A stretch of DNA of 64,000 bases from Takashimella koratensis. Taxonomy: Eukaryota > Basidiomycota > Tremellomycetes > Trichosporonales > Tetragoniomycetaceae. The position numbers and the translations under genes are program-made. Position 1 is the stretch's first letter; every line of letters starts with the position of its first letter. The stretch covers positions 318,149 through 382,148 of the forward strand of contig BCKT01000014.1 of the NCBI GenBank assembly GCA_003116875.1. The letters are read 5' to 3'. Of the stretch, positions 40,947 to 45,169 are shown one piece after another. The notes beneath the pieces were generated by a model. The model made no database searches and was not told the DNA's origin. It was given only the letters and a program-made list of their open reading frames with translations.

Positions 40947-43900
40947 ATGCCGGACGCAGGCAAGCCCGAGTCCTCCTCGGCGTCCTCCTCCGCCGCCGCG
41001 GGCGACTCTCAACCGCCTGTCAAACCCCCTCGCAAGCTGCACCGCTCCTCCAACCAGCTTCACCGCAACCAAGCTTGCATCCCCTGCCGGCGTCGACGAA
41101 TCAAGTGCGACGCGGCCAAACCGCACTGCTCGAGCTGCGTCCGGAGCTTCAACTTTCAACAACGCACGCAGCCCGACGAGGCCCGAGACGCCAAGGGCGT
41201 TCAGTGTTTCTACGAGGAGGAAGGGGAAGGGGACGAAGGAGAAGAAGAGGAAGAAGAAGAGGTTGGAGTAGAAGGGACGGCAGGTGGAGCGAAGAAGAAG
41301 AGGAAGAGTACGAATGGGGCGGCAGTGGTCGCTGGAGCTGGTGGAGAGGGCGGTGATGCGCGCGCAGCAGTGAAGAGACTCGAAGCGAGGATCGGTGAGT
41401 TGGCTGATGTTTTGTCTCCCTCCTTGCAAGCGCTTAGCTGACATTTTGCCTTCTTCACCCTCGATCAACAGCCGACCTTCAACGTCAACTGCAAGATAGC
41501 CCAGACGGGAACGTACCGGCCCCCACACAATCAGGCGACTTTACTTCTTCCATCGAATGGCCAATCACCGCTGAACCCGCGTCCTTCGACATTTTCCCTA
41601 ACGGCAACGGCAGTGGGAGCGGAGGTGGCACGAGCGGTACGGCGGGACCAAATCATGGGCAGTCCACATCGTCCACCTACGACCTCGGGAACGGTTCGAG
41701 CGGCACGGGTAACGGGTACAGCGGGTACCGAAAACCCACGGTGCAGGATGTGCCTGATCTCGCGGACGGCGGGTTCGCGGTGGACCTCGATATCGGCGCA
41801 TGGGACGGGACGAACAACGTCAATATGAGTGGAGTAGGCAATGGCTACGCTCCTCCCGGTGCACAGAGCAGGAGCGGTAGTGGCCAAGCAGGCGGATTGG
41901 ATACTGTGCTCGTTGAACCAATCCAGGGTTTAGATACGTCGTCGTTCTTGCCCCCGACAGACGCGAATATCGTCGATGCAGAGGCTGGGAAGATTAGTGG
42001 GCCGTTTTTGGAGGTGTTTTGGCCAGGGTGGCCACCAAGATTACCTACGCCTGGTGAGTGGGGATTCATCTATGGAATCTAGCGAACCAGGACGAAGCTA
42101 ACGTAGATGTGTAGTTATGCTTGATCACCTGTGAGTAGCAACGACAACAGAACAACAAACGATCATGATTTATCCTTACGCAAAGCTGACTCCAATCATC
42201 TGCTACTCTTTACCTCTCTGCTTTGTGCCTACACCAGTGTCAACACCTTTTTCTCTGTTGTTCCATCCGTTCCTCGAATACTTCAGCGAGATCAATTCTT
42301 CGCTCGTCTCGCCCTCCCACCTCTCCACGCCAACTTTCCGCACCCCGCACTCCTGCACTCAATCTGCGCCGCGTCGGCACGGTACACCGCGGCAGTCCGG
42401 ACCGACTCGGTAGCTGAGAGTATCCGGCGTACGAACGAGGAGTTGGCAGGTGGGAGGCGGAGACCGGCTGGGATGACTGCAGAGGAAGAAGCATCGAGTT
42501 TGACTTGTTTCGCGGAGAGGCATGCCAAGTTTGCAACAATGGAGATGAGGGTGGCCGAAGCGAGAGGGAGGCAGTTTGTGGAGATTGCACAGGCTCAAGT
42601 AATCTTGACACATTATTGTCAACAACATGGTGAGTCGAAGGGGTCAACGACCCCTTTCTAGTCCTTTTGGAACTCGGTCAAGACGTTTGGAGAGCCGTGA
42701 GCTAATAGATCTTAGCGCGCTGGGTTGACGGATGGAAGATTGTTGGCGAAGCAAGCAGAATGGTCGCTCCTCTCGGTCTCATGGTTGACAGCGACACGAA
42801 CCGCCGCCTCCGAACCGCGATTGTTCCTCCACCAACCGAGGAATGGGACAAGGAAGAGCGACGGTTCCTCATGGCGTATATCATGATTGCCGACGCACTG
42901 ACCTCGGCCTCATCGGGATGGCCCAACTCGCTCGCCTTGGATGAATTGGTGTGTGCTGGTATTTGGGCGCGGGGGACCGTGTTGGCAGTGTGCGAACGCC
43001 GAGTATCGTGGCTGACTCCTCTACAGACCTCGACATTGCCTCCCGGTCGAGAAGACTTTGAGCGAGGGGTGAGTGACGCACCCCACTCTTCGATTTCCAC
43101 CCTTCTGACCCAACCCAACGCCTGATCTGAACCCCAGCTGACCCATTCCTCTTCACCCAGGGCGTGATTCCTAGCAACCCTCAGACCTGGAAATCTCTCG
43201 ACCTATTCGTCAACCACCCTGTCGTGGACAGTTTCATCCTCATGTCCAAGGGAGTCTTTCTCCTCAACCAAGTTAATCGGTTCTGTCGACTGTGTCATCA
43301 GCTGGATTCGAGGATCTCTGCCAGGGATTCGGAAGGGTTCAGGAAGCTTGATAAGGATATCGCAGGGTACAAGTGGGTGTCCAAGGAGTAGAGAGAGGAG
43401 GAGATACGTGGTTTCCTTGTACGGCTAGTTGGGCCTTGCTGATAGGCTCGCAGTTTGACGTTCCCGCCCTCGCTGAGAGACCCGCTCACCCCAATGGACG
43501 GAGTCAGCAAAGGCACGGACCCCGACTTGATCGTGAGTGCTCCTCTCTTACTTTTAACCCGCATGCTCGTCCACGTCTTTATCGTCTTTGCTAGCTCATC
43601 TACTAATGCTATATTTGCCCGCCATTAGAGCGCTCACGTCGTCGCCCACGTCGCCGCCATCTCGCTACACGAGCCTTTTGCGGATTTGACGATCCCCAGC
43701 GACCCATCGACTCAGCGTATCCTCACGGAAGCGAGGTCAATCTTGTCTATTGTTTACTTGTTGACTAGCACAACACTCGATTTTTCACATATCTGTCATC
43801 CAATCAATTCTTGTAAGTGTTGCTCTTGTCTCCACTTAATATTCCCTTCCGCCGAAGCGCTTTCCTGCTTCTGCCTCTCATCTTGTTGGCATTTTTTCGC

Positions 43901-45169
43901 TGACTATTCTCTTTCTATTCACAGTGTGAGTCACTACAGATCCACTGCGCGACCTAGCCGGGATATCAAAATGGGTCGTGTACGCTGACAATTGCTCGTA
44001 GCTACTTTTTCGCCGCGGCGAGGACGCTCGTCTTGTTTTATGCCAATGCACTGCGAAACGGTAACCACGAAGCCGCGATGCCGCTTCTTGCCGAGATCAG
44101 CATGTTCCAGTAAGCTTACCTGCTCTGCCCTCAGGTCGACCTCTTACTCGTTCGTGACTCTTTCGCTGATATCCTTGGTATCGATAGACTTGCGTTCCGA
44201 GCTCTCGGCAACCGCTTCTCGATCGGTCTGCGACACGATTCAATGATTGAACAGATGTTGACTGCGCTACACGAGGAGAACGGAGCCATGGCTCAACGAC
44301 ATGCGCCTACCACCGCCTGTCCGTCCACTGTCGTTATGGAGCCTGAAGACTGGAGACCGAAGAACATGCCTCAGCGGAATGGGGAGCGAATCATTATCAA
44401 TTCCGGATTTGATATTCATTTCAATCCTCAGGCAACCCCACCTGGTCTCAACCCGAGCAACGGCTCACTTCTCAATTCCAACTCCAACAGCAACAGCAAC
44501 ACGAGTAACCCGAACAGCGTGGCGTCGGGGCCGGCGCCATCCCCACACCTCCGCGCTTTCGCACCCGGTACATCATGCAACAATGGGATTCACCCTTACC
44601 ACCCCGAGTCTGTCCTCTACGCTTCTCGGCTAAGCACGAACACGGATCTCGATTTTGCCGATATCTTGGATACCCGGCGCGGGTTTAGGGGTAGTACGGG
44701 CGGGAGTGTCAAGTCGATGTCGACGCCGCAATCGAATCCAAGCAATAATAACCCAGGTAGCGGAGGGGTTGGTGCAGGTGCGGGTGTCGGTGTCGGTGTC
44801 GGTGTCGGTGCAGGTTCAGGTTCAGGTTCAGGTTCGGGTCCAGGTGCGACTCTTCGATCCCTGACTAGCGACTCGCCAGCGAGTGCTGGGTCTGGATCAG
44901 CAGCGACTCCAGCGCCTCTCGTCTCGACTCCATTAGCGATGCCGCCGCTGTTCCCGGAACCAGCAGTATCACAATGGTTATCGTGGACAACGACGTCGGC
45001 GAATATCACCTCGCTCTCACCAGAGGGTATGGGGAGGGGGAGTATTGGCGGAGCAGGGGGTGGAGTAGACGGAGGGGTCGGGACTGGGCTCGGTGGGAGT
45101 GGTGGGGTAGGGGGAGTAGGAGGTGTAGATGGAACCGGGACAGGGCAAGGGATGCCTCCGGGCTGGTAA
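40947..45169 (+). CDS. Zn2Cys6 transcription factor with 12 exons, including a predicted 1-nt exon
   Basis: Fungal binuclear-cluster regulator. Exons: 40947-41394, 41472-42053, 42115-42130, 42238-42629, 42716-42948, 43027-43068, 43161-43372, 43454-43532, 43629-43812, 43925, 44002-44109, 44188-45169; 1092 residues. The cluster is CIPCRRRRIKCDAAKPHCSSC with the sixth Cys 23 positions later (KGVQCFYEE), an unusually long last loop. An acidic/Lys linker follows, then the middle homology region: FARLALPPLHANFPHPALLH, ICAASARYT, QAQVILTHYCQQHARWVDGW, EERRFLMAYIMIADALTSA, SFYFFAAARTLVLFYANALR. The C terminus is Gly/Ser/Asn-rich with a GTGTCG repeat (44778-44840). The single-base exon at 43925 is required to keep frame between HPINS and YFFAAAR. 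Confidence 0.88.
43925..43925 (+). other. Predicted 1-nt exon (T)
   Basis: Preceded by branch point CTGAC, a pyrimidine tract and acceptor CACAG (43920-43924), followed at once by donor GTGAGT (43926). The downstream intron has its own CTGAC and acceptor CGTAG (ends 44001). T + T + C from three exons makes a Phe codon. The alternative is a nested twin-intron arrangement spliced in two steps. Confidence 0.65.
44778..44840 (+). repeat. GGTGTC / GGTTCA hexamer repeat, coding
   Basis: Tandem hexamers encode Gly-Val and Gly-Ser dipeptides in the C-terminal region of the Zn2Cys6 protein. Confidence 0.85.

Follow-up and report, generated by a model that had tools for sequence, protein, structure and literature searches.

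A single base as a probable coding exon in a Zn2Cys6 transcription factor gene of a Tremellomycete

In the Zn2Cys6 transcription factor gene analyzed here, which belongs to a Tremellomycete, the single base T43925 very probably constitutes a one-nucleotide coding exon (Table 1). The window, i.e., the whole 64,000-nt stretch of DNA that was analyzed, comes from a genome of 25.1 Mb in 24 contigs. At the junction, the sequence reads CCA ATC AAT TCT T43812 / GTAAGTG...CTGAC...TTCACAG43924 / T43925 / GTGAGTC...CTGAC...CGTAG44001 / C TAC TTT TTC GCC. As the original prediction had it, the 189 bases between the flanking exons consist of two canonical introns (43813-43924 and 43926-44001) and one T, so that a single base stands between the AG of one complete intron and the GT of another. 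The branch-like A is found at 43903 in intron 9, 21 nt before its last base, and at 43988 in intron 10, 13 nt before its last base. T43812 closes exon 9 in phase 1, and direct joining of this exon to the one at 44002 (C/TAC) would leave the frame one base short. The T is thus needed for the frame, which a donor shifted to 43817 could also rescue. With the T, both the length and the residue at the junction match those of the regular homologues, from which, together with the frame, we infer that the T is present in the mRNA.

The 12-exon model was rebuilt and, as predicted, gave a coding sequence of 3279 nt with Phe spelled by T+T+C; this sequence was open throughout, with no internal stop. The domain search identified Zn_clus (PF00172) at residues 42-67 with 31.4 bits (cut-off 21) and Fungal_trans (PF04082) at residues 351-570 with 28.3 bits (cut-off 23), both above their cut-offs, which places the protein among the Zn2Cys6 transcription factors. 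Its closest proteins are those of Cryptotrichosporon argae (57%) and Vanrija albida (56%), both members of the Trichosporonales, Tremellomycetes, and the three form one clade in the protein tree with support of 100/99. Several very small exons, such as exons 3 and 6, are found in this gene, and simple repeats of Gly, Val and Ser (GVGVGVG, GSGSGSG) abound in the C-terminal part of the protein (44780-45150).

Table 1. Positions in the window of the regulator gene, of its small exons and of the elements at the exon 9-exon 11 junction
Feature	Position	Strand	Basis or details
Zn2Cys6 transcription factor gene	40947..45169	+	12-exon model, CDS 3279 nt, 1092 aa
Exon 3, micro-exon, 16 nt	42115..42130	+	12-exon model
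Exon 6, 42 nt	43027-43068	+	12-exon model
Exon 9, phase-1 end, T following HPINS	43629..43812	+	sequence, aligned to homologues
Intron 9, 112 nt	43813..43924	+	GTAAGT donor, CTGAC at 43900, pyrimidine tract, TTCACAG acceptor
Exon 10 (probable), single T, middle base of Phe codon T/T/C	43925..43925	+	frame, profile scores
Intron 10, 76 nt	43926..44001	+	GTGAGT donor, CTGAC at 43985, CGTAG acceptor
Exon 11, starts C/TAC TTT TTC GCC (YFFAAAR)	44002..44109	+	sequence, aligned to homologues
Rival donor GT (GTGTTG), four bases downstream	43817..43818	+	with acceptor 44001, in-frame HPINSCNYFF

Chance controls were run on the splitting of such a stretch into two introns with one base left over. Under loose site rules, 11 of the 18,205 overlapping stretches of 189 bases that were taken in steps of 7 from both strands of the window, those containing 43925 excluded, could be split in this way, and none of the 18,205 could when the inner donor was required to be GTRAG. 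No such split was possible in any of the 167 stretches of 150-230 bases that start with GTRAGT and end with YAG. When the 189 bases were shuffled 100,000 times, 0.135% of the shuffled sequences could be split. The motif YAGNGTRAGT occurs once in the window, both strands included, and 963 times in the 25.1-Mb genome, fewer than its reversed control (1389 times); its rarity was accordingly dropped as evidence for the one-base exon. Common as it is across the genome, the short motif counts as evidence only in combination with the frame problem and the homology.

Alternative splice models were enumerated for single introns of the GT-AG, GC-AG and AT-AC types with donors at 43760-43989, and for pairs of GT-AG introns with the first donor at 43795-43829, an inner exon of up to 43 nt and the last acceptor fixed at 44001. 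In this range, the GTAAGT donor at 43813 was used by only one two-intron model, the one that leaves T43925. Three more solutions left the same T with weak first donors (43795 GTCATC, 43819 GTTGCT and 43828 GTCTCC), and one solution with its first donor at 43817 had a 27-nt inner exon. The only close single-intron model among those listed used the donor at 43817 and kept the conserved segment plus one residue; the remaining models listed lost or gained at least two residues in the HPINS-YFF segment and were rejected.

The model with the one-base T ranked first in all three profiles used for scoring. The scores of the one-base, shifted-donor and T-skipping models were 911.9, 904.3 and 799.1 bits with the profile of the 11 regular orthologues, 558.6, 551.8 and 498.6 bits with that of 9 distant homologues, and 879.3, 871.0 and 773.7 bits with that of both sets. 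Retention of either intron scored 62.1-114.9 bits below the one-base model in the three profiles, with a stop at codon 731 if only intron 10 is retained and at codon 788 if only intron 9 is retained. Read on from exon 9, intron 9 itself has no stop (open frame 43629-43988), and the stop at codon 788 that its retention alone produces comes after the frame has shifted. When the base of exon 10 was replaced by A, C or G, T was still the best in the three profiles, by a margin of just 0.7-3.0 bits. Phe is also found at this residue in V. albida and in Kwoniella pini of the Tremellales, and the small preference for T in the distant profile is not owed to them, because that profile includes no orthologue. 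The one-base exon is thus the reading of the junction that is best supported by the frame, the comparison of splice models, the profile scores and the homology, as was originally proposed.

The main new result comes from the orthologue alignment that had been suggested as a check. The alignment included 51 of 67 proteins (P0025-P0031, P0037, P0054-P0057, P0060-P0062 and P0067 were omitted), of which P0033, P0044, P0050 and P0065 stop short of the junction and were set aside; the remaining 47 comprised 35 orthologues and 12 distant homologues. Searches of viral and genome contig collections yielded no DNA of a relative, and the structure in these relatives was judged from annotated protein sequences. 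By eye, the 35 orthologues, which represent fewer than 35 species, were assigned to four junction classes: 11 are regular with one residue, 14 carry SC[N/D/A]Y (SCx), 3 have a stop or unrelated residues, and 7 have another gap or insertion, i.e., 24 are irregular at the same junction. In the distant homologues, one residue is found in 10 of 12, while P0051 is without it and P0066 has more. A separate alignment had one residue at this column in P0025-P0027 and P0029-P0031; P0028 has no alignment at that position. Further, a paralogous Zn2Cys6 gene of the same genome (contig C4, 1271500-1276500, - strand), which is 37% identical over the stretch spanning the junction, has no intron there, and its uncut sequence HSSSSVTLVTAAR equals HPINSFYFFAAAR in length with the same spacing.

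When a phase-1 donor is shifted four bases downstream, T/GTAA is read as Cys-Asn, T/GTGA as Cys-Asp and T/GTGC as Cys-Ala. The 14 SCx proteins are therefore telling, in that they may well reflect a gene finder that moved the donor four bases on to save the frame. If the donor was indeed read as coding sequence, the Asn and Asp in SCx need a pyrimidine next, so that the following exon would start with C or T ahead of the Tyr codon, as it does in the window, and a T in between would give Phe in the SCx proteins, too. The other irregular proteins differ in form. P0038 of C. deuterogattii reads ITSSSRALILFY, which would fit the splicing of a phase-1 exon end to a cryptic acceptor within the exon that follows, so that the true junction is avoided. 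P0067, which is not among the 35, reads ASCKLIGTEV and then ends, as expected of a run through a T/GTAAG donor at the same position. P0015, P0022 and P0041 have Thr/Ser-Leu followed by a stop or by Tyr-Val, which fits TT/GTGA or TT/GTATGT. The latter proteins, from Tremella mesenterica, Kwoniella shandongensis and Cryptococcus neoformans, respectively, end at or soon after the junction, so that the database records probably lack their C-terminal parts.

In the tree, the SCx class is found beside the window regulator in C. argae (99/95), in seven Kwoniella rows and in six Cryptococcus rows, and is accounted for by 7 changes, at least 5 of which are forced by well-supported branches. A single SCx origin followed by several losses or corrected annotations is possible, and in the 11 regular orthologues the single residue may go back to intron loss instead of a shared one-base exon. 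These protein sequences suggest that the one-base exon is old and often misannotated. The chances seem to us evenly balanced that it predates the split between Tremellales and Trichosporonales and survives, mostly misannotated, in Kwoniella, Cryptococcus and Cryptotrichosporon, with inclusion and skipping of the base perhaps serving as an on/off switch; the latter idea comes from the truncation of the protein by skipping or partial splicing.

The main rival, which was absent from the original prediction, is a single intron from the donor at 43817 to the acceptor at 44001, giving a protein one residue longer (SCNYFF for SFYFF). This model is in frame and free of stops, scores just 6.8-8.3 bits under the one-base model and is the form annotated in the 14 SCx orthologues, some of whose models may rest on RNA data. 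Against it, the donor at 43817 has T at position +5, where, intron 9 aside, each of the 10 introns in the model has G; the residues added in the 14 orthologues are in every case Cys followed by Asn (5), Asp (8) or Ala (1), i.e., the spelling of a donor; and a single residue is the rule in the 11 regular orthologues, the distant homologues and the paralogue. We thus disfavor the shifted donor and consider it distinctly unlikely. It is highly improbable that the whole of 43813-44001 is spliced out as a single intron of 189 bases with the T skipped, whether in a pseudogene or in a nonproductive or regulated isoform. Such an intron would start with GTAAGT, a strong outer donor, and end in AG, and very small exons are known to be skipped, as was an artificial 1-nt exon in 33% of transcripts (cited in PMC4674806). 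Skipping, however, results in a stop at codon 785 and loss of the conserved downstream frame, at a cost of 60.0-112.8 bits, in agreement with the earlier claim that the conserved segment is out of frame without the T. In addition, the rest of the gene is intact. The model's nine remaining introns measure 61-107 nt, next to which 112 and 76 nt are nearly ordinary lengths and 189 nt would be long. The T-skipped form could coexist as a minor isoform.

An assembly error, in which a base was lost or inserted close to the junction of what is really an ordinary single intron, would produce just the one-base discrepancy observed. It would have to fall exactly at the junction, and the same place is irregular in the 24 of 35 orthologous database proteins, which come from several genera though not from 35 independent species or annotation pipelines. 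The occurrence of SCx in Kwoniella, Cryptococcus and Cryptotrichosporon likewise argues against an error, the chance of which we regard as very remote. The probability of a classical stwintron, i.e., an external intron with a splice element split by an internal intron and with no intervening base kept in the mRNA, is close to negligible: the two introns do adjoin and are probably removed in sequence, but a [D1,2] stwintron is ruled out by the TA that begins at 43814, an [A2,3] stwintron needs G after the last acceptor where 44002 is C, and neither would leave the T that the frame needs. No intron at 43813-44001 thus lies within the donor or acceptor of another. The stwintron-like two-step route that had been offered as an alternative holds in part, in that sequential removal is likely; the published definition of a stwintron does not apply, and the T must stay.

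For the one-base exon, a route of splicing can be proposed. The CACAG acceptor of intron 9 and the GTGAGT donor of intron 10, which are one base apart, would be too close to be bound simultaneously, so that the two introns most likely leave one after the other. This is in line with the APC11 paper, according to which the acceptor and donor of a one-base exon are hardly usable at the same moment (PMC4674806). As to the order, we infer with only a slight lean that intron 9 leaves first: T43812 would join T43925, the GTGAGT donor would then lie right after the new exon end (TCT TT/GTGAGT), and removal of intron 10 would next give TCT-TTC-TAC, which encodes Ser-Phe-Tyr in a segment that is conserved in the protein. 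The intermediate from which intron 9 is gone reads TCT-TTG-TGA, i.e., it stops immediately. P0015, P0022 and P0041 hint at such a state, as they could have intron 9 removed and intron 10 kept; a lineage without intron 9 fits equally. Contrary to this lean, the second intron leaves first in the mini-exon of potato invertase (cited in PMC4674806).

If conserved in these short-intron fungi, the junction would be a tractable system for studying how the spliceosome deals with an acceptor and a donor separated by a single base. The SC[N/D/A] fingerprint in proteins, i.e., a donor read four bases too far, could also be used to locate missed one-base exons in databases.

The nuclear one-nucleotide exons with which the present case was compared are those of plant APC11, plant VPS55 and Fusarium CYP621A, none from a basidiomycete, and no report of a one-nucleotide exon in Basidiomycota was found in the titles and abstract beginnings of the open-access literature. 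A further one-nucleotide exon is reported from placozoan mitochondrial cox1; mitochondrial papers on the subject include PMC12308204 and PMC5436844. A regulatory parallel is offered by Xlr2 of Trichoderma, a GAL4-like regulator with a microexon switch (PMC11121469). In stwintrons, adjoining introns need two consecutive splicing steps, and two steps are likely in our case, too, given the one-base spacing; our case differs in that intron 9 ends one base upstream of the intron 10 donor and this base would be retained (PMC9024468, PMC5639578).

The closest likenesses are as follows. APC11 of Arabidopsis and other plants has one coding base between two introns that is required for the frame and was missed by annotation, and most land plants retain this one-base exon, with copies free of introns found elsewhere, a distribution to which that seen here may be likened (PMC4674806, PMC8831610). 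It belongs to a plant and to another gene family, and was proven by cDNA and reporter assays, whereas our case is argued from sequence (PMC4674806). VPS55 likewise has a conserved 1-nt exon with a GTRAGT donor that is absent from reference annotations; it differs in being from plants and in that forms with and without the base were seen by RNA-seq (PMC8831610). The CYP621A case (PMC12940212, 2026), called the first for a fungal gene by its authors, supplies the second base of a codon within a conserved motif, where a phase-1 exon meets an exon one base short, as in our regulator; in contrast, it is a G in an ascomycete P450 and is supported by transcript reads. The original statement that one-base exons are extremely rare hence needs updating, given VPS55 in land plants and CYP621A in Fusarium besides Arabidopsis APC11, and the present case belongs to a kind that is still rare yet known from plants and Fusarium, rather than being the first of all.
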